From contig NZ_BOMM01000012.1 in assembly GCF_016862195.1 (NCBI RefSeq), forward strand, positions 124,001-188,000: a DNA stretch of 64,000 bases, read 5' to 3'. This document shows positions 2,421 through 20,541 of this stretch, in pieces; within the stretch, counting starts at the first letter, position 1, and every line of letters begins with the position of its first letter. This stretch comes from Paractinoplanes ferrugineus (GTDB taxonomy: Bacteria > Actinomycetota > Actinomycetes > Mycobacteriales > Micromonosporaceae). The notes under the pieces were generated by a model. The model was given only the letters and a program-made list of their open reading frames with translations. It was not told the origin of the DNA and did no database searches. Made by a program: the position numbers and the translations under genes.

Positions 2421-4607
2421 TCAGCGGGACAGGGCCTCGTGGAAATCGTCGCGCTCCGCGCCGACCAGGCCGAACGCGTCGGCCAGCAGGCGCGCCGTCT
2501 CCGGCCGGGGCCGACCGGCCTTGCCCGATTCGAGGTAGCGGATCGTGCGCACGCTCAGCCCGGTGCGGTCGGCCAGGTCCTCCTGCGACAGGCCACGACG
2601 CAGGCGGTGGGCGCGGAGGTCGGAACCTCCCGGCCGGACCGTCGAGCCGAGCTTTCGGCGCAGGTCGGCGGCCTGCGGGTGGCCCAGGTCGGCGAGGATT
2701 TCGTACGCCTGACGCCAGCGCTCGCCGGCCGCGCCGGGGTCGCGCACCACCTCGTACAGGTCGCCGAGATGGGCGATGATCTGCGCCTCCAGCACCGGGT
2801 TGCCGGTCTTGCGGGCCAGCCGCAGGCCCTCCTCGAAGTGCCGGGCGGCGTGGTCGTGCTCGCCGTTCACCAGGTGCAGCAGGCCGAGGCCGTCCCGGGT
2901 GATCGCCTCGCCCGCCCAGTCCCCCACCCGTTGCTGGCTCGCCAACGCCCGGGTGAAGTACGGCAACGCGGTGGCCGGCGAGCCCCGCTGCGCGTGGTAC
3001 CACCCCACCGCCAGCGCCGCCTTGCCCTCCCAGATCGGGTCGCCGACCGCACCGAACAGCTCCAGCGCCGTCCCCGCCTCGGCGAGCGCCCGTTCCTGAT
3101 CACCCTGGAGCCACCACAGGTAGGACAGGATGAACCGGCATTCCGCGGTGCCGGCCCGATCGCCGGCCGCTTCGACCAGGGCCAGGGCGCGGCTCAGATT
3201 GGCTTGCGCTTCCTCGAAGCGCTGCCGGCGCCCGTCGGCCACGGCGAGGAAGGAGTACGCGTACGCCAAAGCGGGCCCGTCGGCGAGGGTGGCCGCCGAA
3301 TCCAGCGCCACCACCCACGCCGCGCCCTCGTCGTCCCAGCGCCGCTCCTCGTTCAGGAACGAGTCGAGCGCCCAGCTCAACTGCCACGCCTGGGTGTCGA
3401 GTCCTTCGTCGCGGGCCTGCCGGACCGCCGCCAGCAGCGTCTCGTGCTCGCCCCGCAGCCAGGAGATCGCGGCCTTCATGTCGACGAGCGGGCGCGGTTG
3501 GGCGTCGTCGGCGGGCGCCCCCAAACTCATCGGGATCGGCGCGCGGGTCGGGTTGAGCACCAGATCGGCCTGGTATGCCGTGTGCGTGTAATGGTCGAGC
3601 AGCCGGGTGAGCGCCGCCCGCCGCTCGGCCGGTTCCTCCTGCTCGCGGGCCAGCTCACCGGCGTAGGCCCGGATCAGGTCGTGCATCGCGTACCGCCCCG
3701 GCACCGGCTCGTCCACCAGGCCCGTATCGATCAGGTCGGCAAGCACGCGCCTGGTCTCGGCGGGGGTCGCACCACCGAGCGCGGCCACCGCGGCGAGCGC
3801 GATGTCCGGCCCGGCCGCCAGTCCGAGCAGCCGGAACAGCCGGGCCGCGGGCCGATCGAGGCCGTGATAGGACCAGGAGAAGACGGCTCGGGCGTTCTCC
3901 AGGGCCGCCAGCCGGTCGGCCGGGCGGCGCAGCTCGGCCGCCAGCGCGGTGAGCGCGGCCAGCGGACAGCCGGCGATGCGGATGCGGGCCGCGGCCAGGG
4001 TCAACGCCAGTGGCAGGCCACCGCACGCGCGGACGATCTCGGCCTCGGCCGCCGGTTCGGTCCGCTCCGGGCCGAGCCGCCGGCGGAACAGCGCGGTCGC
4101 GTCGGCCGGCGGGAGCACCTCGACGGCCAGCGGGCGGGCACCGACCCCGGCGATCAGGCCGGTCAGCTTGGCGCGGCTGGTCACCAGCGTGCGGGTGGCG
4201 TCGCCGGTCGGCAGAAAGGGCCGCACCTGCTCGTCGTCGCGGGCGTTGTCCAGCACCAGCAGCAGGCGCCGGGTCGCGGTCAACTCGTGGTAGACGTTCC
4301 GCCGACCATCCAGATCGTCGGGCATCGCGGCCGCTTCCACGCCGAGCGCGGCCAGCAGCAGTCGCAGGCCGTCGGCCGGGTCACGGGGCGTCGACGTGCT
4401 GAAACCCCGCAGATCAAGATAGAGATGCCCGCCCTCGTAGCGATGGGCGTTTTTCCGCGCCCAGCGCACGGCGAGAGCGCTCTTGCCGGTGCCGGGCGGT
4501 CCGTTGAGCACGGTCACGCCGGTCGGGTCGGCATCGAGCGCGGTGAGCTCGGCGTCGCGGCCGGTGAACTCGGCGATGTCAGGCGGGAGCAAGGCCGGAA
4601 CGGACAT
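2421..4607 (-). CDS. NB-ARC/TPR transcriptional regulator with C-terminal XRE-type HTH
   Basis: 728-residue STAND-type regulator. Residues 10-24 resemble the FTGRDAEL motif that precedes the NTPase in AfsR-like proteins; Walker A is GPPGTGKS (36-43) and Walker B-like LLLVLDNARDDEQV follows. GGLPLAL is the GLPL motif of NB-ARC ATPases and MHDLIRAYA the MHD-like motif. The middle part holds several TPR-like helical repeats (for example AALAVGWYHAQRGSPATAL). The last 65 or so residues form a helix-turn-helix (LSQEDLADRTGLSVRTIRYLE). In many family members the DNA-binding domain is N-terminal, so this order is notable. Start ATG 4607 has GGAGG 13 bases upstream; a longer frame to 4814 has no family match. 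Effector and targets are unknown. Confidence 0.87.
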   Translation of the reverse strand: MSVPALLPPDIAEFTGRDAELTALDADPTGVTVLNGPPGTGKSALAVRWARKNAHRYEGGHLYLDLRGFSTSTPRDPADGLRLLLAALGVEAAAMPDDLDGRRNVYHELTATRRLLLVLDNARDDEQVRPFLPTGDATRTLVTSRAKLTGLIAGVGARPLAVEVLPPADATALFRRRLGPERTEPAAEAEIVRACGGLPLALTLAAARIRIAGCPLAALTALAAELRRPADRLAALENARAVFSWSYHGLDRPAARLFRLLGLAAGPDIALAAVAALGGATPAETRRVLADLIDTGLVDEPVPGRYAMHDLIRAYAGELAREQEEPAERRAALTRLLDHYTHTAYQADLVLNPTRAPIPMSLGAPADDAQPRPLVDMKAAISWLRGEHETLLAAVRQARDEGLDTQAWQLSWALDSFLNEERRWDDEGAAWVVALDSAATLADGPALAYAYSFLAVADGRRQRFEEAQANLSRALALVEAAGDRAGTAECRFILSYLWWLQGDQERALAEAGTALELFGAVGDPIWEGKAALAVGWYHAQRGSPATALPYFTRALASQQRVGDWAGEAITRDGLGLLHLVNGEHDHAARHFEEGLRLARKTGNPVLEAQIIAHLGDLYEVVRDPGAAGERWRQAYEILADLGHPQAADLRRKLGSTVRPGGSDLRAHRLRRGLSQEDLADRTGLSVRTIRYLESGKAGRPRPETARLLADAFGLVGAERDDFHEALSR

Positions 4608-5422: not shown

Positions 5423-6367
5423 ATGGATACCGAACACACCGGTGCCGAACCTGAGGCACTCGATGCCTACAGCCGCATCGTGACCGGTGTCGCCACCAGC
5501 CTGCTGCCCTCGGTCGCCGCCCTGTCGGTGCGCACCGCCCGCGGTGCCGGGGCCGGCTCGGCAGTCACCTTCACCGATGACGGATTCCTGCTCACCAACG
5601 CCCACGTGGTAGTCGGCGCGAACGGCGGCACCGCCGATTTCGCCGACGGCACCGAGACGAAGTTCGACGTGGTCGGCTCGGACGCGCTCTCCGACCTGGC
5701 GGTGGTCCGGGTGCACCACCCGGGCGCCCCGGCGGCCCCGCTCGGCGACGCCGACAAGCTGCGCATCGGCCAACTGGTGGTCGCGGTCGGCAACCCGATG
5801 GGTCTGGCCGGCTCGGTGACCGCCGGCGTGGTCTCCGGCCTGGGCCGCTCACTACCCGCCCGCGACGGCCGCCGGGTGCGAATAATCGACAGCGTCATCC
5901 AGACCGACGCGGCCCTGAACCCCGGCAACTCCGGCGGCGCGCTGGCCGACTCCACCGGCACCGTGGTCGGCGTCAACACCGCGGTGGCCGGCTACGGCCT
6001 GGGCCTGGCCGTCCCGATCAACGCCACCACCCGAACCATCATCAGCGAGCTGCTGACCACCGGCAAAGTCCGCCGGGCCTGGCTGGGCGTAGCCGGCGTG
6101 CCGGTCCCGTTGCCCCCGGCCCTGGCCACCCGCTTGGGCCAGAAGCTGGGCCTACGGGTGGTCGAGGTGGTCCCCGACAGCCCGGCCGGCCAGGCCGGCA
6201 TCTATCTGGGCGACATCCTGATCTCGGCCGGCTCGCAGCCCTTGGAGACCGTCCAGTCCCTGCAGCGCCTGATGCTCAGCCCCGCCATCGGCACCCCGCT
6301 CCCCATCACCTTGCTACGCAAAAACGCCCTGGTAGACGCAATAACAGTCCCCACCGAGCTCCCCTAA
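5423..6367 (+). CDS. HtrA/DegP-like trypsin-type serine protease with PDZ domain
   Basis: 314 residues. The catalytic triad is visible: His61 (NAHVV), Asp91 (SDLAVV) and Ser170 (GNSGG). After the protease domain a PDZ domain begins near residue 215, with VVEVVPDSPAGQAGI and GDILISAGSQPL typical of HtrA. Unlike many actinobacterial HtrA proteins there is no N-terminal transmembrane helix or signal peptide, so it may act in the cytosol. The start at ATG 5423 gives the usual short N-terminal helix; GTG 5414 is an in-frame alternative, and neither has a strong RBS. It is divergent from the small gene at 4961-5260, with about 160 bp between them. Confidence 0.88.
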   Translation: MDTEHTGAEPEALDAYSRIVTGVATSLLPSVAALSVRTARGAGAGSAVTFTDDGFLLTNAHVVVGANGGTADFADGTETKFDVVGSDALSDLAVVRVHHPGAPAAPLGDADKLRIGQLVVAVGNPMGLAGSVTAGVVSGLGRSLPARDGRRVRIIDSVIQTDAALNPGNSGGALADSTGTVVGVNTAVAGYGLGLAVPINATTRTIISELLTTGKVRRAWLGVAGVPVPLPPALATRLGQKLGLRVVEVVPDSPAGQAGIYLGDILISAGSQPLETVQSLQRLMLSPAIGTPLPITLLRKNALVDAITVPTELP

Positions 6368-6464
6368 AACCCCACTCCCACTCCCACGCCCCCAGCCCCA
6401 GCCCGTCGCCCAGCCCGCGCCATAACCCCCTATTTCCAGCAAGGTCGTTACCACGGAACTGCCC

Positions 6465-6572
6465 GCGATCGCCCGCTGATGAGGAGGTCGCCGTTTTCGC
6501 GTCGCCGCGGGGTTTGCGGTGCCGCGGAAACGGTGACCTCCTCATCAGCTCCCAGGGGCGATCGCCCGCTGA
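6465..6572. repeat. Large hairpin flanked by 15-bp direct repeats, between convergent genes
   Basis: Arms 6475-6496 and 6528-6549 are complementary over 22 bp with a single G.T pair; the 31-bp loop is itself GC-rich and partly self-complementary. The sequence GCGATCGCCCGCTGA occurs at 6465-6479 and again at 6558-6572, in direct orientation around the hairpin. The element fills the gap (6368-6643) between the convergent protease and cbs genes and contains no gene. It could be a bidirectional terminator or a copy of a dispersed intergenic repeat. Confidence 0.7.
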
Positions 6573-6643
6573 GCGAAGCGAAGCCAGCCGGCTCAGCAGC
6601 GTGTAAAACCAAGCCCAGCCAAGTCCCGCCTTAACTACCCACC

Positions 6644-8002
6644 TCAACTCAAATGGGTCAACAAATCCTGTCGGGTGAGCACCCCAGCCGGCTTCCCGTC
6701 GATCAGGACCATCGCGGCGTCGGCCTTCTCCAGGAGGGCGACGGCCTCGGCCACCGGCTGTCCGCCGCCGATCATCGGCAACGGTTCGCCCATGTGCCGC
6801 TCGATCGTGTCGTGGAGATGCGCCTGCCCGGTGAACAGGGCATCCAGCAGCGCCTTCTCCGCGATCGAACCGGCCACCTCGCCGGTCACCACCGGCGGTT
6901 CGGCTTTGAGGACCGGGAGCTGGCTCACGCCGTACTCCCGCATGTAGTCGATGGCGTCGCGCACCGTCTCGGTCGGGTGCACGTGAATCAGTGGCGGCAT
7001 CCCGCCGTCCTTGCCTTCGAGCGCGTCGGCGACCGTAGGTGCGTCGCCGGCGCCGGTGCGCAGGAAGCCGTAGCGGGCCATCCAGTCGTCGTTGAAGATC
7101 TTCGACAGGTAGCCGCGACCGCCGTCGGGCAGGAGCACCACGATCACGTCGTCGGGGCCGGCTTTGCGGGCGACCTCGAGGGCGGCCACCACCGCCATTC
7201 CGCAGGAGCCGCCGACCAGCAGGCCTTCCTCGCGGGCGAGGCGGCGGGTCATCTCGAACGAGTCGGAGTCGGAGACCTCGATGACCTCGTCGCAGATGTT
7301 CCGGTCGTAGGCGGTGGGCCAGAAGTCCTCACCGACACCTTCGACGAGGTAGGGCCGGCCGGTGCCGCCGGAGTAGACGGAGCCTTCCGGGTCGGCGCCG
7401 ATCACCCGGACCTGGCCCTGTTCTTTCAGGTAGCGCCCGACGCCGCTGATCGTGCCACCGGTGCCGACCCCCGCGACGAAGTGGGTGAGCTGGCCGCCTG
7501 TCTGTTTCCACAGTTCGGGGCCGGTGTCTTCGTAGTGGGAGCGGGGGTTGGCCGGGTTGGAGTACTGGTCCGGCTTCCACGCGCCGGGTTCGGCGGCGAG
7601 CCGGTCGGAGACGTTGTAGTAGGACCGCGGGTCTTCGGGTGCGACCGCGGTCGGGCAGACGACGACGTCAGCGCCGTACGCCCGGAGGACGTTCTGCTTG
7701 TCTTCGCTGACCTTGTCGGGGCACACGAAGATGCACTTGTAGCCGCGCTGTTGCGCGACGAGAGCCAGGCCGACACCGGTGTTTCCGCTGGTCGGCTCGA
7801 CGATGGTGCCACCCGGGCGGAGCAGGCCGGCCTTCTCGGCGTCGAGCACCATCCGCATCGCGATCCGGTCTTTCACCGATCCGCCGGGATTGAAGTATTC
7901 GACCTTCGCCAGCACCGTGGCAGAGATGCCCTCGGTGACACGGTTCAGCTTGACCAGGGGTGTATCACCGATTATCTCGACGACGTTGTCGTAGTAACGC
8001 AC
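6644..8002 (-). CDS. cbs: Cystathionine beta-synthase (PLP domain plus CBS-domain pair)
   Basis: 452 residues. The enzyme condenses serine and homocysteine to cystathionine using pyridoxal phosphate (reverse transsulfuration). The PLP lysine is Lys44 in NPGGSVKDR; the phosphate-binding TSGNTG and GTGGT loops follow, as does GGSCGMA. The C-terminal 120 or so residues form two CBS domains (PLIHVHPTETVRDAI, then AVALLEKADAAMVLIDGKPAGVL written in two parts), which distinguishes it from plain O-acetylserine sulfhydrylase. The GTG start at 8002 is 3 bases after the stop of the DUF1232 gene, so the two are probably translationally coupled. Activity on O-acetylserine remains possible. Confidence 0.92.
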   Translation of the reverse strand: MRYYDNVVEIIGDTPLVKLNRVTEGISATVLAKVEYFNPGGSVKDRIAMRMVLDAEKAGLLRPGGTIVEPTSGNTGVGLALVAQQRGYKCIFVCPDKVSEDKQNVLRAYGADVVVCPTAVAPEDPRSYYNVSDRLAAEPGAWKPDQYSNPANPRSHYEDTGPELWKQTGGQLTHFVAGVGTGGTISGVGRYLKEQGQVRVIGADPEGSVYSGGTGRPYLVEGVGEDFWPTAYDRNICDEVIEVSDSDSFEMTRRLAREEGLLVGGSCGMAVVAALEVARKAGPDDVIVVLLPDGGRGYLSKIFNDDWMARYGFLRTGAGDAPTVADALEGKDGGMPPLIHVHPTETVRDAIDYMREYGVSQLPVLKAEPPVVTGEVAGSIAEKALLDALFTGQAHLHDTIERHMGEPLPMIGGGQPVAEAVALLEKADAAMVLIDGKPAGVLTRQDLLTHLS

Positions 8003-8005
8003 GCC

Positions 8006-8350
8006 TTAGATTACGACGACGCGGTCCCGCTCCTTCTCCCACTCCAGGAAGCGCTCGGTTTCGGCGAGCACCGAGCCGGCCAGCCAGGTGATCATGACGG
8101 CGTCGTCGGCGAGCCCGGCGACCAACAGGAACGCCTCGGGAATGAAGTCGATCGGGGACACGACGTAGGCCGTGGCGGCCGCCATCATCGCGACGCGCAG
8201 ACCGCCGTCGTACTGTCCTTTGGCGGTTGCTTTGAGCATGCGGGGCAGGGCGGCGAGTCGCTTGCTGATCGGCGTGCCACCTCGCGCACCGGACATGAGT
8301 GCCTTGGCCAGCGCCGTGAAGGCCGCGGTCCGTTGCAACGTCTTAGCCAT
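8006..8350 (-). CDS. DUF1232 (YkvA-like) small membrane protein
   Basis: 114 residues. Contains the family signature YVVSPIDFIPE (about residues 62-72) inside a hydrophobic segment, followed by a second one (LLVAGLADDAVMITWLAGSVLA). DUF1232 proteins are small integral or peripheral membrane proteins without an established biochemical role. The gene sits directly upstream of cbs, three bases apart. The ATG at 8350 is preceded by GGAGGGAAGC on the minus strand. It is divergent from the SGNH hydrolase gene. Confidence 0.85.
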   Translation of the reverse strand: MAKTLQRTAAFTALAKALMSGARGGTPISKRLAALPRMLKATAKGQYDGGLRVAMMAAATAYVVSPIDFIPEAFLLVAGLADDAVMITWLAGSVLAETERFLEWEKERDRVVVI

Positions 8351-12902: not shown

Positions 12903-14294
12903 TCATGCGGGTGCCAGAAGCTGTGAGCAGGCTGAAAAAACAACCGTCGAAGCAGCCAGACCCCTCTTCGCCGGGGCCGGACCGCGGCCGAATCCGATGA
13001 GCAGGAGGGTCAGAACGCCGAGCAGGGCCAGAACGGCCAGGACGATCACCGCGAGCCGCCGGCGGCGGGTCCGGCTCGGCGGTGGGGTCCGCCCGGGAGC
13101 CCGGCCGGGGGGTGCCGGCCGGGAGACGCCACGCGGGGACGGCGAGTGCGGCCGGACGTGTCCCGCCGACATCCCCGCGTTCGCCGGGACACCACCCCCG
13201 ACCAGGACCCGAGTGCCGGCCACGGCCGGTCGAACCCCCGCCGCCGCCACCGTCGCGGCGCCGAGCGCCACCGCGTGTTTCGGGTGGGCGTCGGTCCGGA
13301 TCGGGCATCCGAGCTCTTCGGTGATCATCTGCCCGATCAGCGGGATGCGGGCCGACCCGCCGACCAGCAGCACGGCGGCGAGGTCGTCCACCCCGATCCG
13401 GGCCGAGTGCACCGCCCGGACCAGGGCGCCGATCGTCGACTCGATCCGCGGCCGGATCATCGACTCGAGGTCCTGGCGGGTGAGCTGGGCGAAGAAGCGC
13501 CGGTTGGACAGCAGGACGGAGATACTGGCCTCGGTGTCGACCGACAGCGCCTCCTTGGCCCGTACGCACTCCTGGCGCAGCAGTGCCAGGGCCACCACCG
13601 AGGCGGGCTCGAACGGGTCGAGCTCGGCCGGCCGGCCGCCGTGCCGATAGTTGATCCACTCGACGATCGCCTCGTCGAAGTCGGCCCCGCCGAGCCGTTC
13701 GATCCCCTCCGGCTCGCCCACCACCTCGATCGCCCCGGCGCGCTTGCGCAGCACGGTGGCGTCGAAGGTGCCACCGCCCAGGTCGTACACCGCGATGGTG
13801 GCGCCGTCGCCGAGGGTGCGGTTCACGCCGTAGTAGGCGGCGGCCGCCTCCGGCTCGGTCAGGACCAGGTGGTCACGCAGTCCGGCGAGCCGTGGGACCT
13901 CGTCGAAGAGCTCCCGCCGGTACGGGCCCCAGCCGGCCGGGTGGGTCAGCGCGACCCGGTCCGGTGGGCCGCCCTGCGCCCGGCTGACGATGTCGAGCAC
14001 GTCGCGCAGCTGCTCCGCCATCAGCGCGGTCACCTCGTGCGGCGTCCCGCCGAGGAGCACCGGGGTCGGATCGCCGAGCCGCCGCTTGAACCAGCGCTCG
14101 ACCCGGCCCGGATCGCTCAGCGCGTGCCGCTCGGCCGCCTCGCCGAAGATCAGCCTCGAGTCCTCCGCGCGATACACGGCCGCCGGAGCGACCGTCGAGT
14201 GGTCACCGAGAGCGCACATCTCGACTTGGCCGTCGCGCGCGACGGCGGCGGCCACGAAGGTGGTCCCAAGATCGACACCGAGGTCGTAGCCCAC
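12903..14294 (-). CDS. Hsp70-like ATPase with C-terminal transmembrane anchor
   Basis: 463 residues. The N-terminal 370 form an actin-like/Hsp70 nucleotide-binding domain: phosphate-1 motif YDLGVDLGTTF, phosphate-2 VYDLGGGTFDATVL and the adenosine loop LLVGGSARIPLI. There is no DnaK substrate-binding domain. Instead a Pro/Arg-rich linker leads to a single predicted transmembrane helix, VIVLAVLALLGVLTLLLIGF, near residues 425-445, and a short tail that would lie outside the cytosol. GTG 14294 has GGGAGGG six bases upstream. It is divergent from the four-gene signalling operon with a shared 119-bp upstream region, suggesting related roles. Not canonical DnaK. Confidence 0.85.
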   Translation of the reverse strand: MGYDLGVDLGTTFVAAAVARDGQVEMCALGDHSTVAPAAVYRAEDSRLIFGEAAERHALSDPGRVERWFKRRLGDPTPVLLGGTPHEVTALMAEQLRDVLDIVSRAQGGPPDRVALTHPAGWGPYRRELFDEVPRLAGLRDHLVLTEPEAAAAYYGVNRTLGDGATIAVYDLGGGTFDATVLRKRAGAIEVVGEPEGIERLGGADFDEAIVEWINYRHGGRPAELDPFEPASVVALALLRQECVRAKEALSVDTEASISVLLSNRRFFAQLTRQDLESMIRPRIESTIGALVRAVHSARIGVDDLAAVLLVGGSARIPLIGQMITEELGCPIRTDAHPKHAVALGAATVAAAGVRPAVAGTRVLVGGGVPANAGMSAGHVRPHSPSPRGVSRPAPPGRAPGRTPPPSRTRRRRLAVIVLAVLALLGVLTLLLIGFGRGPAPAKRGLAASTVVFSACSQLLAPA

Positions 14295-14346: not shown

Positions 14347-14413
14347 GAATCCCCCCGGTGCAAGTAGGGCTGGCCCCACTGACGACAACGGTCCACCACG
14401 GGAGAATGACGTC

Positions 14414-15004
14414 ATGACGCTCGACACGTACGACGCCACCCGTTCGGCCCGGCGGTCGGCGGACGAGCAATGGAGCCAGCGCCGCGACATCGAGCGTCAG
14501 TTGCACGACGGCCCGGCCCTGCGGATCGCGGCGCTGACCCTGCGCCTCGGACTGCTCGCCCAGAAGGCCCGCTCCGACGCCGGCGACCTGCCGCGCGACA
14601 TCGCGGAACTGCAGGACCAACTGCACCTCATCCAGCAGGAACTGCGTGCGGTCGCCGACCGCATCTATCCGCCGCTGCTGCAGGAAGCCGGTCTCGGGGC
14701 GGCCCTGCGCGAGCTGGCGGGCAGCGCCTCGATGCGCGTCGACGCCGACGGCGGCCGCTTCGACACGGCGGTGGAGGGGGTGGCCTACTTCGCCGTCCTC
14801 GGGGTTCTGGCCGCACTGCCGCCCACCACTCGAACGGTGGACGTGGTCATCCGACGGGATGCCGAGGGCTTGGCGCTCGACCTGGGCAATGTCGATACTT
14901 GCCAGATCGACGCCGTCCGCGACCGCGTCCAGTGGGTCGGCGGGGTGGCCGCGGTGTTCGGCGGCCTGATCGGAACAATCAAAGTGAGGATTCCGTGCGA
15001 GTAG
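14414..15004 (+). CDS. Short histidine-kinase-like protein (HisKA_3 with degenerate ATPase)
   Basis: 196 residues, no membrane segment or sensor domain. Residues 25-36 read RQLHDGPALRI, matching the dimerisation/phosphoacceptor helix of NarL-partner kinases, with candidate His31. The rest has the size of a HATPase_c domain, but the N-box Asn and the Gly-rich ATP-lid motifs are not recognisable (the region reads DLGNVDTCQIDAVRDRVQW). It may accept phosphate or dimerise with the intact kinase encoded by the fourth gene rather than act as an ATP-dependent kinase. First gene of the operon; its stop overlaps the response regulator start by 10 bp. Confidence 0.72.
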   Translation: MTLDTYDATRSARRSADEQWSQRRDIERQLHDGPALRIAALTLRLGLLAQKARSDAGDLPRDIAELQDQLHLIQQELRAVADRIYPPLLQEAGLGAALRELAGSASMRVDADGGRFDTAVEGVAYFAVLGVLAALPPTTRTVDVVIRRDAEGLALDLGNVDTCQIDAVRDRVQWVGGVAAVFGGLIGTIKVRIPCE

Positions 15005-15660
15005 CGGTGGCCGACGACGGGGCGTTGTTCCGCGACGGCTTGGTGATGTTGCTCGACGCGGCCGGGCACGAGGTGGTCGGTTGCGCCGCGGACGGAGACG
15101 CCCTGGTCGAACTGCTCGCCACCGAACCCGCCGACGTGGCGGTGCTCGACATCCGGATGCCGCCCGAGCCGGACGGCGGTCTGGTCACGGCCGAGCGGCT
15201 GCGGGCCGATCACCCGGGCCTCGGCCTGCTGTTCCTGTCGCACTACGCCGAGGCCCACTACCTCATCCGCGTGCTGCACATCGGCACCGACTCGATCGGT
15301 TACCGCCTCAAGGAGAAGGTCGGCAGCGTCGAGGTCCTCAGCGACACGCTCACCCGCATCCGCGACGGCGAGATCGTCATCGAGCCGGTGCTGGCCCAGC
15401 GGCTGGTCGAACAGCCGAGCAGCAGCCGGCGCGACGCGCTGGTGGCGCTGTCGGAGCGCGAGACCGAGGTGCTGCGACTGATGTCCGAGGGCCGGTCCAA
15501 CGCGGGCATCGCCAGTGTGCTGTTCGTGGCGGCCAAGAGCGTCGAGAAGCACATCGCCAGCATCTTCACCAAACTCGGTCTGCCGTCGGACACCGCCGAG
15601 CACCACCGGCGGGTGCTCGCCGTGCTGACCTTCCTGCGATCGCAGGAGGGCAGTGGCTGA
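14995..15660 (+). CDS. LuxR/NarL-family response regulator
   Basis: 221 residues. N-terminal receiver domain: acidic pair ADD near residues 6-8, phospho-acceptor Asp52 in VAVLDIRMPPE, and a conserved Lys in YRLKEKVGS. The C-terminal LuxR HTH runs from about residue 153 (LSERETEVLRLMSEG, then AAKSVEKHIASIFTKLGL). It would bind DNA as a dimer after phosphorylation, probably by the kinase encoded at 16936-18861. GTG 14995 overlaps the preceding gene by 10 bp, with GAGGA just upstream. The receiver replaces the usual switch Thr/Ser region with LSHYAEAHY, a form common in this subfamily. Confidence 0.92.
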   Translation: MRVAVADDGALFRDGLVMLLDAAGHEVVGCAADGDALVELLATEPADVAVLDIRMPPEPDGGLVTAERLRADHPGLGLLFLSHYAEAHYLIRVLHIGTDSIGYRLKEKVGSVEVLSDTLTRIRDGEIVIEPVLAQRLVEQPSSSRRDALVALSERETEVLRLMSEGRSNAGIASVLFVAAKSVEKHIASIFTKLGLPSDTAEHHRRVLAVLTFLRSQEGSG

Positions 15661-16939
15661 CCCGGTCACCAGGCTGGTGCGGACGATTCTGCCGGCCGGC
15701 GTGACGTTCCTTCTGCTGATGGTCGTCGCCCCGGTCGCCGGTCGGGCCGGAGCGGACCGCCCGGTCGCTCTCTGGCTGCCGTTCGCCGTGATCGCGGGCG
15801 CGACTGTCCTGCTGGCCCGGTCGCGTGGCACCGTCGTCCGGATCGCGGCGCGGATCACCCGGCGCGGCGAGGTCACGCCGTACTCGGCGCTGGCGGAGGC
15901 GGCCCGTCATCTGCGGTCACCGTCGCTGCGCGACGCCCTGCCCGGGTTGGCCCGGGCCCTCGCCGGTGGCACCGGGGCCCGGCGGGCGACGATCTGGCTG
16001 GTCGTCGGCGATCGGCTGACCCTCGTCGCATCCAGCCCGGCGGTGCGGGCCGGCGGGCCGGAGAGCGTGGCCGGACTGGACGCGCTGCTGTCCCGGCCGG
16101 GCATCGCGTACGCCGTACCGCGGCTGAACACCGGCGGACCGCGGGCCGTGCTGGCGATCGAGAAGCCCGGATCGCCGGTCACCAAGCAGGACCGGCGGCT
16201 GCTGGACGACATCGCCCACGGAACCGCTCTGCTGCTGCGCCGGACCACCCTCAACAACGAACTGACCGAACACGCGCTCCGCGCCGATCAGCTGGTCCGG
16301 GAGTCCCACGACTTCCAGCGCCGGCTCGCCCAGGCCCGCGAGGTGGAGCGGCGCCGGCTGCGGACCCAGCTGTCCCGCGCGACCGCCGGGCGCCTGGCCG
16401 CCCTGCGAGCCCACCTGAGCGCCGCCCGGACCACCCTCGGCGGGCACAGCGCCGGGCGCGCGCTGCGGCTGGCCCGCACCGAGCTGGACGAGCTGATCGA
16501 CCGGTTCCGGGTCATCGCCCGCGGCGTCTACCCCGCGGTGCTGCGCGGGCAGGGACCGGCGGCGGCCCTGGAGGAACTGGTGGCCGATCTGGGCCGGCCG
16601 GTCCGGCTCAGCGGCGACCTCGACGTACGGGCCGGGTGGGCGGTCGAGTCGGCCGCCTACCAGGTGACGGCGGCCGCCCTCGAGGTGCTGGCCACGCACC
16701 CGGCCGCCGAGGAGATCCGGGTGCGGGTGGTCCACGGCGAGGCCCGGATGCGGATCCTCGTGGAGGACCCGGCGCCGCCGGTGACCGCGGAACAGATGCG
16801 CGCCGTCCTGGTCGACGACGTCGAACGGCTGGCGGCTCTGGGCGGTGCCATCGAGTTCGCCGACGGCGAGGCGGGCGAGCTGTGCCTGGATGCCTGGCTG
16901 CCGGACGGGCTCGACGCGCGGACGGAGCCGACGTCGTGA
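15653..16939 (+). CDS. Degenerate histidine-kinase-like membrane protein (phosphoacceptor His absent)
   Basis: 428 residues. Two predicted membrane helices lie in the first 55 residues, then a GAF-like domain (about 80-200), then a kinase-like C-terminus. At the position where NarL-type kinases have ERDLHDGAQ this protein has RRRLRTQLSRATA; Ser241 takes the place of the His. The ATPase region also lacks the N-box Asn and the DxGxG lid (it reads LVEDPAPPVTA). It is therefore probably a pseudokinase: a sensor or scaffold. GTG 15653 overlaps the regulator by 8 bp, with GGAGG just upstream, and its own stop overlaps the next start by 4 bp. Confidence 0.78.
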   Translation: MADPVTRLVRTILPAGVTFLLLMVVAPVAGRAGADRPVALWLPFAVIAGATVLLARSRGTVVRIAARITRRGEVTPYSALAEAARHLRSPSLRDALPGLARALAGGTGARRATIWLVVGDRLTLVASSPAVRAGGPESVAGLDALLSRPGIAYAVPRLNTGGPRAVLAIEKPGSPVTKQDRRLLDDIAHGTALLLRRTTLNNELTEHALRADQLVRESHDFQRRLAQAREVERRRLRTQLSRATAGRLAALRAHLSAARTTLGGHSAGRALRLARTELDELIDRFRVIARGVYPAVLRGQGPAAALEELVADLGRPVRLSGDLDVRAGWAVESAAYQVTAAALEVLATHPAAEEIRVRVVHGEARMRILVEDPAPPVTAEQMRAVLVDDVERLAALGGAIEFADGEAGELCLDAWLPDGLDARTEPTS

Positions 16940-18861
16940 CTTCGCGCGTGGCCCGGCTGGCAACCGCGAGCATCGGGCTGATCTGTGGGGTGCTGGCACT
17001 TGGCCGGCTCCTGATCGAGCTCTTCCTGCTCACCTCCGGCCACGACCATCCCGGCGTGCAGATCGTCACGCAGCTCGGCTGCGGGCTGATCACGCTCGGC
17101 CTCGGCACCGCGCTCCTCGTCTCCGGGCACCGGGACCGGGCCATGCGGCCGTTCGCCCTGGCCCTACTGGCCGGCGCCGGATCCGATCTCGGCCCGGTGA
17201 TCACCGGTGACTTCATCCTCCCGGCGGTGTCCCTGGGCGCCTTCGCCTGCGCGCTGCTGTCCTACCCGCCGGCCGGTGGACCGCGCAGCCCCGACCGGGA
17301 CGAGATCGTGGTGGCGGCCGGCTCGACCGCCGCGCTGGGCGCGGCCGTCGCGGCCGCCTTCCCGCCGGCGCTGAGCCAGATCGCGCTCTTCGGCGCCATG
17401 CTGCCGGCACTCGCCTTCATGCTTCTGCGGCATCGGGGGCGCGCCGACCTGACCGCGATCGAGCGGGCCCGGATCCGGCTGCTCTTCGGCATCCTGGTCA
17501 GCGCGGCCCTGATCATGCTGGTGCTGATGCTGGTCTTCCTGCCCATCCCGGCGGTACGCGATCCGGCGCCGCTGGTCTGGTTCAGTCATCTCGTGCCGGT
17601 CACCGTCGCGATCGCCGCGAGCCGGCGCGCGTCCCTGCGAGCGGTTCAGCGCCGGCTCGGCACCGTACTCGTCGTCGCCCTGGTCACCGTTCTGATCGGC
17701 GGCCTGTTCGTGGTCCTGCACACCGTCGTGCCGGCTCCGGTCGCGGCGGTGCCGGCGGCCGTGCTCCTGCGTCCCGTTCACGTTCGCGTCGAGCGTTACC
17801 TCAACCGCCTGCTCTACGGGCGGCGCCCGACGCCCTACAGCGTGCTGGCGCGGATCGGCGCGCTGGCGCGGGCGAGCACGCCGCACACCACCGATCTGGC
17901 CCGGGTCACCGAAGCGGTCGGACGCGATCTGGGCGCGCACGTGTGCCGGCTCAGCGTGGTGCGACCGGGGCTGCCCGAGCGTACGTACGCGTGGACCCGC
18001 CCCGGGGCGAGCGAGACCGAAGCCCTGGTCACGCTGCCCATCACCCGCGGCGGCGTACGGCTCGGCTCGATCACGGTGGACCGCTCGGCCACGCTGGTGC
18101 CGGACACCCGGCACGCCCCGCTGGTGGCCGACGTGGCCGACAGCCTCAGCGCGGTGCTCGAGGCGTACCGCCTGCAGATCGAACTGGAACGCCAGATGCG
18201 GACCGTCCAGGCGCACACGGCGGAGATCGGCCGCTCCCGGCAGCGGCTGGTGGCCGAGATGGACGCCGAACGCCGGCGGATCGAGCGGGACCTGCACGAC
18301 GGCGCCCAGCACCACCTGGTCTCGTTGCGGCTGGCGATCGGGCTGGCCGAGCACCGGGTCCGCACCGACGGCACCGAGGCGGCCAAGGCCCACCTCGACC
18401 GGATCACCGTCCAGATCGACGAGGCGGAGTCCATCCTGGCGCGTACGGCCACGGGCGGGACCTCACCGCGGCTCACCGAACTCGGACTGGTCGCGGCGCT
18501 GGAGACGGAACTGGGCCTGCGCGTCACGACCACCGGCATGCCGGCCGAGCGGCGGTTCCCGGCCGCGATCGAGAAGGCTGTCTGGTTCTGCTGTCTCGAA
18601 GCGGTGCACAACGCTCGCAAACACGCGCCCGGCGCAGCCGTCCGGCTCTCCCTCGACCTCGGCGGGGACCGCCTGGAGTTCGGTGTCCACGACGACGGCC
18701 CGGGCTGGGACATGACCGCGGGAACCGACGGCCTGGGCCGCGGTCTGCGGAACATGACGGCTCGGGTCACGGCGCTGGGCGGCATGGTCGAGGTGCGTTC
18801 GCACCCCGCCACCGGCACGCGAATAGCCGGCTGGGTGCCGTTGCCGGTCACGCCCAGCTGA
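16936..18861 (+). CDS. Multi-pass membrane sensor histidine kinase (NarL/DesK type)
   Basis: 641 residues. The N-terminal 290 contain about eight hydrophobic segments, followed by a GAF-like region (about 300-400) and a coiled stretch. The HisKA_3 motif RDLHDGAQHH carries His454, and the HATPase_c has its N-box EAVHNARKHA and lid DDGPGWD, so this is the only complete kinase in the operon. It is expected to phosphorylate the response regulator encoded at 14995-15660. GTG 16936 overlaps the stop of the pseudokinase gene (GTGA). The membrane-embedded sensor suggests a lipid, envelope or small hydrophobic signal, but this is inference. Confidence 0.9.
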   Translation: MTSRVARLATASIGLICGVLALGRLLIELFLLTSGHDHPGVQIVTQLGCGLITLGLGTALLVSGHRDRAMRPFALALLAGAGSDLGPVITGDFILPAVSLGAFACALLSYPPAGGPRSPDRDEIVVAAGSTAALGAAVAAAFPPALSQIALFGAMLPALAFMLLRHRGRADLTAIERARIRLLFGILVSAALIMLVLMLVFLPIPAVRDPAPLVWFSHLVPVTVAIAASRRASLRAVQRRLGTVLVVALVTVLIGGLFVVLHTVVPAPVAAVPAAVLLRPVHVRVERYLNRLLYGRRPTPYSVLARIGALARASTPHTTDLARVTEAVGRDLGAHVCRLSVVRPGLPERTYAWTRPGASETEALVTLPITRGGVRLGSITVDRSATLVPDTRHAPLVADVADSLSAVLEAYRLQIELERQMRTVQAHTAEIGRSRQRLVAEMDAERRRIERDLHDGAQHHLVSLRLAIGLAEHRVRTDGTEAAKAHLDRITVQIDEAESILARTATGGTSPRLTELGLVAALETELGLRVTTTGMPAERRFPAAIEKAVWFCCLEAVHNARKHAPGAAVRLSLDLGGDRLEFGVHDDGPGWDMTAGTDGLGRGLRNMTARVTALGGMVEVRSHPATGTRIAGWVPLPVTPS

Positions 18862-19966
18862 ACCGCTGAGCGCGCTGCCGCAGCTCACCGATCGAGGCGA
18901 GGTCCAACTCGATCTCGGCGAGGGCCTCCGGCAGTCGCTCGCTCTCCGCGGCCGCGCGGCGTGCCGCATCGGCCATCGCCGACAGCCGGCGCGACTCGTT
19001 CGTCACCGCCTCACTCAGACCGGCATGCATCTGCTGTTCGATGGCGCGTACCTCGTCGCGCACCCGCTTGCTGACCGCCAGCCGGAACGCGTCGATCAAC
19101 GACCGCAGCTCACCGGCGCTCTCCGCGTCGCGCCGGCTCCGTTGCCGCTGCCGCTCGCCGGCCAGGGCGGCCCCGCCCAGGCCGGCCGCGCCGGTCACGG
19201 CCGCGACCACGGTCAGCCACAACGACATCCCGATGCCGAAGAGCCGGGGAAGGACGAGGGCGACCATGATGCCGCTGTAGGTCGGCATGACGACACCGAC
19301 CAGCCGGGTGGCCAGCGCCTGCCGTTCGGACAGGGCTCGCGGACCGCGGTGGATGTAGTCCACCAGGTCGGCCGGCGGCTCGAGATCGAGAACGACGGGC
19401 GGCACCGGCTCGCTCAGTCCGATCGAGGAGGCGACCCGCTCGCCGATCTCACCCGCCGCCAGACGCACCGCCCGGTGCACCGCCTCGACCTCGGCCACCA
19501 GGCGTTTGCGCACCCAGCGGTCGAGCTCGTCGCCGGTCAGTCCCTGCTCCTCGATGGCTCCGGTGCCCTCGTCGAGCAGCGCGCGCAACCAGTTGTGCAC
19601 GGCGAACTCGATGTCCGAATCGGTCGCCGCCAGGGCATCGCCGAGAACTCGCGGCCAGCGGCCGGCCCGGTCCTGGAACTGGCGCAGGCGGGACTCCGCG
19701 TGCCGCGCCTCGGCGGCCAGCCGCGCCCCGCGGCCGGGATCGGCCAGGGTGGCCTGTCGGCTGCGAAGGTCGACCTCCAGCGAGCGCAGCGCACCCACCA
19801 CCGTGTCGGCGACGGCCGCGGCCGGGCGAGCGGCCGCCAGGTCGGCGGCGGCCAACCGCATCCGGCGTACGAGATCGGGCCGGACGTTGGCCTCGGCCCC
19901 GCGCAGCACCAGGTCGACAATTTCCCCCAGGTCGTCCTGGACGACCGGGTCGTTCGTCACGGTCAT
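18848..19966 (-). CDS. Helical protein with membrane hairpin, dynamin-C-terminus-like, function unknown
   Basis: 372 residues, nearly all helical and Ala/Arg/Glu-rich. Residues 220-265 contain two adjacent hydrophobic helices (GVVMPTYSGIMVALVLP and MSLWLTVVAAVTGAAGL), flanked by long charged helices. This layout resembles the C-terminal stalk and membrane paddle of bacterial dynamin-like proteins, but no GTPase motif is present. ATG 19966 has GGAGG five bases upstream; the GTG at 19978 overlaps that RBS. It converges on the kinase gene with a 14-bp overlap and is probably co-transcribed with the repeat protein 73 bp upstream. Confidence 0.65.
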   Translation of the reverse strand: MTVTNDPVVQDDLGEIVDLVLRGAEANVRPDLVRRMRLAAADLAAARPAAAVADTVVGALRSLEVDLRSRQATLADPGRGARLAAEARHAESRLRQFQDRAGRWPRVLGDALAATDSDIEFAVHNWLRALLDEGTGAIEEQGLTGDELDRWVRKRLVAEVEAVHRAVRLAAGEIGERVASSIGLSEPVPPVVLDLEPPADLVDYIHRGPRALSERQALATRLVGVVMPTYSGIMVALVLPRLFGIGMSLWLTVVAAVTGAAGLGGAALAGERQRQRSRRDAESAGELRSLIDAFRLAVSKRVRDEVRAIEQQMHAGLSEAVTNESRRLSAMADAARRAAAESERLPEALAEIELDLASIGELRQRAQRFSWA

Positions 19967-20039
19967 CGTGGCCTCCACCAGGTGCCGGTCGGAGGGCGGA
20001 CGGCCGCCGGCCGAAGCCGGCGGCTACCCACGCCAGTCG

Positions 20040-20360
20040 TCAGTGGCAGGAGAGGAACGAGTTGTGGTCGAAGCTGATCAGACCGCGCGGGCCGTCGTGG
20101 CACTCCTGGCCACCGCCCCAGCGCGGGCCGTCGTTGCAGTCCTGGATGCCGCTCCAGCGCGGGCCGTCGTCGCAGCCCTGGATGCCGCTCCAGCCGCCAC
20201 CGCCGCCCCAGCCACCGCCCCAGCCACCGCCGTCGTGGCAGCCGTTGTCGCCCCAGCCGAACTGATGCGATCCCTGGCCCCGGCCGAAGCTGATGAAGCG
20301 CTGGCCCGGGTCGAAGCATTCTTCCTTGCCGCCTTGGTGGGCGCTGTGCCACTTCGTCAT
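20040..20360 (-). CDS. Gly/Trp-rich protein with Cys-Asp-Gly repeats, unknown
   Basis: 106 residues from ATG 20360, with AAGGA at suitable spacing. No signal peptide or membrane helix. The composition is extreme: about one third Gly, many Trp/His/Asp, six Cys and almost no aliphatic core. Four copies of C(H/D/N)DG are seen, three in a 12-residue register (CDDGPRWSGIQD, CNDGPRWGGGQE, CHDGPRG). Both ends carry an ISF motif (RFISFG near residue 25 and LISFDHNSF near the C-terminus). GC3 is about 95% on this strand, supporting it over the Ala-rich antisense frame. Structural repeat protein, metal binder or peptide precursor are all possible; no family recognised. Confidence 0.65.
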   Translation of the reverse strand: MTKWHSAHQGGKEECFDPGQRFISFGRGQGSHQFGWGDNGCHDGGGWGGGWGGGGGWSGIQGCDDGPRWSGIQDCNDGPRWGGGQECHDGPRGLISFDHNSFLSCH

Positions 20361-20468: not shown

Positions 20469-20541
20469 AGGCCGGAGTGGGGTTCTCCCTACCTCAAAGG
20501 TGCGCGTCAACCACGGAGAGTGACATCAGAATTCCTTTGGG

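Follow-up and report, generated by a model that had tools for sequence, protein, structure and literature searches.

In a 64,000-nucleotide (nt) stretch of Paractinoplanes ferrugineus DNA (contig NZ_BOMM01000012.1; the whole stretch is called the window below), four genes on the plus strand, named A, R, G and K here, appear to encode a two-component system in which the kinase functions would be spread over three histidine-kinase folds. One complete kinase (K) and one complete response regulator (R) are accompanied by a pseudokinase (G) and by a stripped kinase (A) that has an acceptor histidine and lacks ATP-binding motifs. The reading we favor, with a probability of roughly 0.55, is that K powers R, G tunes K, and A docks and buffers R. 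The genes overlap by 10 nt (A/R), 8 nt (R/G) and 4 nt (G/K), in keeping with the four overlapping genes described in the first-pass annotation, and are laid out as follows:

A, 14414..15004, plus strand: dimerization and histidine phosphotransfer (DHp) domain with His31 and a vestigial catalytic and ATP-binding (CA) domain; no ATP-binding motifs
R, 14995..15660, plus strand: NarL-type response regulator with a complete receiver; GTG start at 14995
G, 15653..16939, plus strand: pseudo histidine kinase with two hydrophobic helices, a GAF-like domain, a DHp with Ser241, and a CA domain without N-box, G1 or lid
K, 16936..18861, plus strand: complete HisKA_3 kinase with multiple transmembrane segments; His454, Asn559, and DDGPG at 586-590

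Relatives were collected with two peptide patterns in R, and the 80 loci compared here are the best 80 of 289 relatives by R similarity rather than a random sample. They come from Actinoplanes, Paractinoplanes, Pseudonocardia, Actinomycetospora, Geodermatophilus, Saccharopolyspora, Actinokineospora, Thermocrispum, Prauserella and other genera, and include some metagenome-assembled genomes; contigs end within or close to five of the loci (L125, L137, L147, L151 and L163), so that some gene absences reflect contig ends. R is present in 80 of these loci, A in 79, G in 79, K in 78, and H, an Hsp70-type gene divergent from the operon, in 73. The A/R overlap is 10 nt in 77 of 79 loci and 4 nt in the remaining two (L191 and L192). 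Within the genus of the window, a close A match (E 2e-60 or better) was found in 8 of 59 other genomes, and the cluster together with H is syntenic in all eight. A search for G over 35 of those 59 genomes returned six close matches, which are the six genomes among those 35 with a close A match. In a class-wide draw of 394 genomes, relatives of R with 64-68% identity were found in 11 genomes of a family labeled f32, where R and G lie beside a convergent K, and one with 69% identity was found in Actinokineospora spheciospongiae. In another genome (G067, locus L070), two copies of R (1527-2189 and 3029-3688) lie beside G and K without A.

The intact part of the system consists of K and R. Motifs were counted over 91 K rows, 94 G rows and 80 A rows. 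K matches the Pfam families HisKA_3 (5e-9) and HATPase_c (3e-9), and its acceptor His, Asn559 and DxGxG are kept in 90 of the 91 rows, the remaining row being a gap; with acceptor, N-box and DxGxG together, K has the features of the kinase side of a two-component system. The first-pass annotation had called K a complete eight-helix kinase. Completeness holds, while the eight helices are plausible but not settled, as a crude hydropathy scan gives about 10 N-terminal segments, some overlapping. R carries Response_reg and GerE domains, as expected for the response regulator that had been proposed, and Asp8, Asp52, Ser82 and Lys106 are invariant among 13 aligned relatives, with Asp or Glu at residue 7. 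This alignment left out L065, which contains Ns, and L106 and L109, in which the first residues could not be aligned. The receiver Asp, the Ser/Thr, the Lys and the helix-turn-helix place R on the regulator side.

G is supported as a conserved pseudokinase by its alignment. No Pfam family scored above the cut-off for the window protein. An AlphaFold2 model (predicted local distance difference test score, pLDDT, 77.7; predicted template modeling score, pTM, only 0.42) begins at the N terminus with a pair of hydrophobic helices and continues with a GAF-like alpha/beta domain; a long helix then leads to a DHp hairpin and a CA-like fold lacking the lid. Model and alignment thus agree with the earlier description of a GAF-containing membrane protein in which Ser241 occupies the position of the acceptor His and the ATP lid is lost. 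The model matches a bacteriophytochrome, DesK, DivL (4q20) and a structure titled 'bacterial phosphotransferase' (4fpp, which we take to be ChpT), with low whole-model TM-scores of 0.19-0.28. At position 241, His is found in none of the 94 rows; the residue is Ser in 31, Thr in 20, Ala in 16, Leu in 12, Gly in 10, Arg in 4 and Gln in 1. The N-box pattern was found in 0 of 94 rows, DxGxG in 2, and a loose GxG[LM] in 19, and the orthologs seen are accordingly not normal kinases. The G alignment was too variable to be used for scanning the genome collection. G lacks both the acceptor His and the ATP-binding motifs of a functional histidine kinase and resembles a DivL-type pseudokinase in combining a histidine-kinase fold, a substituted His and an adjacent active kinase. 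A misread acceptor in the window protein was considered and rejected, since its residues 236-247 contain no His, a residue present there in 33 of the 94 rows.

A is a protein of 196 amino acids that matches HisKA_3 at residues 23-87 (E 9e-8) and shows no Pfam match to HATPase. Its His31 sits in an LHDGP motif, and the N-box pattern was found in 0 of 80 rows, while DxGxG and the loose GxG[LM] each occur in 6 of 80. The first-pass annotation, which described a short HisKA_3 protein with His31 and no ATPase motifs, was right in these respects, but A is not a DHp alone: the predicted structure (pLDDT 87, pTM 0.71) adds to the DHp hairpin a small CA-like domain without ATP motifs. Among solved folds, the model comes nearest to DesK, and its CA part to VraS and DosS (Z 13.6 and 11.9). 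With a His-bearing DHp and a degenerate CA domain, A has the makeup of phosphotransferases of the Spo0B/ChpT/PhyT type. Folds shared with known proteins do not establish the function of A or of G.

The history of A was approached through trees, which were calculated by maximum likelihood and drawn with a midpoint root. A, G and K each occupy one side of a branch with support of 100/98 or better. In 16 of 17 loci, a kinase gene adjoins the sister regulator of R (about 50% identity); 15 of these 16 kinases contain an N-box and DxGxG, and 10 contain an LHD-type acceptor, the rest being truncated or unmatched by the patterns. No kinase core suitable for the tree could be obtained from seven of the 17 sister loci, and the second tree left out G of L070. 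A clusters (98/95), apart from K and G, with nine sister kinases that are encoded directly upstream of their regulators and with a paralogous kinase of its own genome; L101, one of the nine, showed neither N-box nor DxGxG. In the paralogous pair of the window's own genome (L258), kinase and regulator genes overlap by 10 nt, as A and R do. Because A groups with kinases encoded upstream of the sister regulators of R, it looks like the stripped kinase of R, and the simplest reading of the tree is that A is the ancestral kinase of R reduced to its phosphoacceptor part. The tree gave no support to a recent duplication of G or K as the source of A. The loss of catalytic motifs from two proteins of one operon is not background, since all 30 control kinases of the same genome (the best 30 of its 36 HisKA_3 matches, with L207 judged by eye) keep the His and an N-box-like pattern.

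A C-terminal tail links K and G across the loci. Of the 80 loci, 53 have it on K and 16 on G; none has it on both proteins, and in 11, several of them at contig ends, it was found on neither. The window and L117-L119 lack it. The 16 loci with the tail on G are exactly those with K on the opposite strand. Examples are K of L131 (11089-14706) and G of L184 (9668-11491). The tail consists of a degenerate TRAFAC GTPase-like stretch and a helical part, the latter being the part covered by the hidden Markov model built for it. Pfam returned nothing above the cut-off for 14 members, and the tie to TRAFAC GTPases comes solely from a profile search of the PDB (best match mt-EngA, E 1.2e-5; MeaB, 6e-5), with Thr or Val at the P-loop Lys position in nine matched stretches. 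As the tail moves between two proteins of one cluster, it suggests that K and G act jointly, possibly in one complex. For the heterodimer formation proposed in the first-pass annotation, this change of host protein is the sole hint.

Five positions after the acceptor His, at what we take to be the phosphatase residue of this class (DxxxQ/H), 78 of 91 K rows have His and 64 of 80 A rows have Leu. Leu is found there in all 11 K of family f32 and in K of L174. The f32 loci (L105-L115) thus have in K, at position 459 in window numbering, the residue that A usually has, and A was not found at the locus; they form one clade, possibly reflecting one event. L174 combines Leu at this position of K with the presence of A.

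Outside the operon, the following features of the window may belong to the same regulatory unit:

H, 12903..14294, minus strand: membrane protein with an Hsp70-type ATPase domain and a single hydrophobic segment in its C-terminal part; gene divergent from the operon
Inverted repeat GTAGGGCTGGCCCCAC, 14364..14379, no strand: in the divergent H/A promoter region; candidate operator of R
D, 18848..19978, minus strand: convergent with K and perhaps regulated by R; its product has a hydrophobic hairpin in the middle
Small Gly/Trp/Cys-repeat protein, 20040..20360, minus strand: upstream of D; possible target of R
Exact operator-like site GTGGGGTTCTCCCTAC, 20477..20492, no strand: 117 nt upstream of the small repeat-protein gene

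The consensus of the inverted repeat, GTRGGG-N4-CCCYAC, came from a dyad search of 18.4 kb of H/A sequence, made up of 60 regions from the window and 59 loci and including the first codons of both genes. Exact copies are present in 18 of these regions, copies with one mismatch in 12 and with two mismatches in 19, while 11 have none; the other 1.32 Mb of the 80 loci contain 22 exact, 32 one-mismatch and 241 two-mismatch copies. The sequences are related, so these counts are not independent. Among the 22 exact control sites, one (L178) also lies between H and A, and three precede the small gene in L117-L119, where the order of exact site, small gene and D recurs with the site 115-121 nt upstream. 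The genome of the window (G000) has four exact sites, namely those at 14364 and 20477, one at a kinase/regulator pair on contig C88, and one unexplained. The regulator of the C88 pair is 43% identical to R, and the pair is followed by a transporter read by eye as MMPL-type.

H matches Pfam HSP70 (1.8e-47) and has, by hydropathy, a hydrophobic stretch at 445-475 of the long open reading frame; its start was taken as the GTG at 14294, and the frame is open from 14399. In L133, H lies on the same strand as R. In L131 (Pseudonocardia, 5555-8026), the ATPase part of H is followed by a C-terminal beta-propeller of the lactonase/YNCE type, which could be an outside sensor. D of the window has no Pfam match and a hydrophobic hairpin at 225-273 by hydropathy; D of L149 gave a sub-threshold match to Dynamin_N (1.4e-4). 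D adjoins the cluster in 7 of the 8 same-genus loci, the exception being L065, where the contig ends; among the 80 loci it does so in 12. The small repeat protein, whose gene has a GC content at third codon positions of 0.90, contains Cys-containing repeats (..DGPRWGGIQDCN..), and similar proteins are encoded in L117 (9441-9779), L118 (14055-14384; with a similar end, FDHNAFVACH) and L119 (14060-14329).

At the f32 loci, the neighbor of K is an Hsp70 gene in L106, L109 and L111 and an EccC-like FtsK/SpoIIIE gene in L110 (13121-19000), L112 (12585-16607), L113 (11622-15680), L114 (3391-7467) and L115 (10806-16391). The L113 gene is EccC-like by Pfam and is followed by an EccD gene, and the other f32 genes are 73-98% identical to it. 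An EccC-like gene 56% identical to that of L113 also lies near A and R in a Prauserella locus (L196, 3179-7210). These neighbors hint at a link to type VII secretion.

Taken together, motif loss and retention, conservation, selection, synteny, the grouping of A in the tree, the exchange of the tail and the promoter repeat are the observations from which we infer phosphotransfer, protein contacts and binding of R to the repeat. Since no other protein of the cluster has intact ATP motifs, K most likely starts the reaction, and it would be the one kinase that uses ATP and supplies the phosphoryl group. G would sense through its membrane/GAF part and would partner K, moving it between an active and an inactive state. 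All 11 f32 loci, L070 and L188 have G along with R and K although A was not found there, so that G is likely a constant part of the control of K. A, presumably coupled to R in translation, would dock R and, where its His is present, may pass on phosphate or buffer it. Of these roles docking is the likeliest, because A groups with kinases of the R lineage and overlaps R; phosphotransfer through His31 may take place, but not in all members. Phosphorylated R would then regulate its own divergent promoter, serving H and A-R-G-K, through the repeat and, in the clade of the window, would also regulate the small repeat-protein gene and D. A stronger version is possible and is held tentatively, in which the kinase of R was cut down to A, ATP catalysis was handed to K of another lineage, and G became an inseparable control subunit, so that the three folds amount to one enzyme.

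Several observations weigh against the view that K powers R, G tunes K and A docks R. Asn replaces the His of A in four loci (L184-L187), and A was not detected at 10 f32 loci, in a search confined to the loci themselves, nor at L070 and L188; the f32 locus L106 ends at R, so the presence of A cannot be judged there. With Asn in four loci and A not found in others, the His of A is evidently not always needed. In G, a His at position 242 in 33 of 94 rows, followed by Ala, Val or Leu instead of an acidic residue, could be a re-registered acceptor; it is missing from the window protein, which has Arg242, and from the Actinoplanes and Paractinoplanes rows. The sister kinase of L092 falls elsewhere in the tree, and the trees are unrooted. 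The exchange of the tail gives an indirect hint of contact between K and G. As to the repeat, exact copies across the genome of the window number 4 against 10 for a reversed-pattern control, so that position is what speaks for an operator. The repeat also lies at the other kinase/regulator pair, in congeners with a close A (G000, G004) and without one (G030), with sites at L257 6155, L260 (G030) 4886 and L261 4150, and a comparison of coordinates suggests the same for the corresponding pair in further congeners. Given this distribution, R and the C88-type regulator probably share DNA specificity; given also the lack of a genome-wide excess, the paralogous regulator may bind the repeat instead.

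Other arrangements of the same proteins were weighed. The flow could be reversed, with G, and perhaps A, reading phosphorylated R through a dead DHp/CA module and feeding back on K without sensing a stimulus. G retains the kinase fold and its model matches DivL, which the available part of one report describes as a sensor of a phosphorylated regulator (PMC5361649), but conserved residues are kept in the N-terminal membrane/GAF part of G itself (29 rows), which argues for an input of its own, and it is A rather than G that groups with kinases of the R lineage; we regard this flow as unlikely. About as doubtful is a role of A purely as a decoy that sequesters R as an anti-activator, its His never being phosphorylated. 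The near-constant A/R overlap, the loss of the His in four loci while the rest of A stays, and PhyT, which in the text available likewise sequesters its regulator (PMC5898713), fit such a decoy, yet the acceptor His is kept in 75 of 80 A rows and the following Asp in 78 of 80.

That same retention, together with the lineage of A and with PhyT, ChpT and Spo0B, described in the accessible part of that report as degenerated kinases acting as phosphotransferases (PMC5898713), would suit an obligatory relay in which K phosphorylates His31 of A in trans, A alone passes the phosphate to R, and G is a scaffold. R is, however, the only receiver recurring in the cluster, although a receiver encoded elsewhere is possible. 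A fixed K-A-R relay was rejected as a general rule because A was not found at the 10 f32 loci, L070 and L188 and has Asn in four loci, and we consider an obligatory relay improbable. The first-pass annotation had cast A as a His-only phosphotransfer partner, of which the His without an ATP site stands and the generality does not. Finally, although catalytic motifs are gone from both A and G, their persistence by linkage as functionless, decaying copies is very improbable, and decay or pseudogene status was rejected on selection and conservation: each forms a clade conserved over many genera, close matches have no internal stops, and ratios of nonsynonymous to synonymous substitution rates, computed against and among three relatives, are 0.17-0.40 for A, 0.33-0.55 for G, 0.17-0.24 for R and 0.22-0.39 for K. 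One A frame, that of L163 on a short low-depth contig, is broken before the motif.

Known systems each share one or two features with this cluster, and none was found in a limited search to combine its active kinase, pseudokinase and stripped kinase, so the system is a variant of the two-component system rather than a new category; each kind of component has precedents. In DivL-CckA of Caulobacter, as far as the available descriptions go, a pseudo histidine kinase likewise modulates an active kinase, but DivL has Tyr for His and couples the regulator of another pathway, whereas here pseudokinase, kinase and regulator share one HisKA_3/NarL operon and G has no recognizable ATP motifs. In the HK1-HK2 pair of Mycobacterium tuberculosis, ATP and His functions are split between the two proteins. 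The HK1-HK2-TcrA system (Rv0600c-Rv0601c-Rv0602c) likewise comprises two kinase proteins and one regulator in the part of the source available (PMC8965865). The present cluster differs in having a complete kinase to which two degenerate ones are added. RcsB is a NarL-type regulator. The Rcs system (RcsC/RcsD/RcsB) has one kinase that is active and a kinase domain that is not, along with a site for His transfer and a regulator, according to the accessible text of a preprint (PMC13317618). There, again in the text available, the receiver is part of RcsC, a hybrid, and the Hpt is part of RcsD, while here no intermediate receiver recurs and the dead kinase and the His protein are separate. PhyT, ChpT and Spo0B are, like A, kinase-derived proteins with a His and a degenerate catalytic domain (PMC5898713, in part); A differs in being of the HisKA_3 class and grouping with kinases of the R lineage, with no matching receiver step found in the cluster. 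The pseudokinase RocA of group A Streptococcus acts through the active kinase CovS, and the available part of that report does not mention a second, His-bearing degenerate kinase (PMC7028121). In Corynebacterium glutamicum, an inactive actinobacterial kinase, ChrS, promotes phosphotransfer by the paralogous kinase HrrS, but it arose from a laboratory-evolved frameshift and is not a conserved gene, as the accessible text describes it (PMC9491836). A limited search of the open-access literature turned up no description of a system that has a stripped kinase and a separate pseudokinase alongside an active kinase, in agreement with the earlier statement that no such system was known.

Few bacterial pseudo histidine kinases have been studied, and a substituted His occurs in about 1% of sequenced kinases, according to the part of a commentary available. 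Here a pseudokinase and a stripped kinase recur beside an intact kinase in scores of genomes, and their conservation suggests a regulatory job for degenerate kinases rather than debris. The loci also form a natural series for the study of dead kinase domains, with A present, A with Asn or A not found, and with the tail on K or on G, and the cluster may show how a regulator changes its kinase yet keeps its old docking domain.

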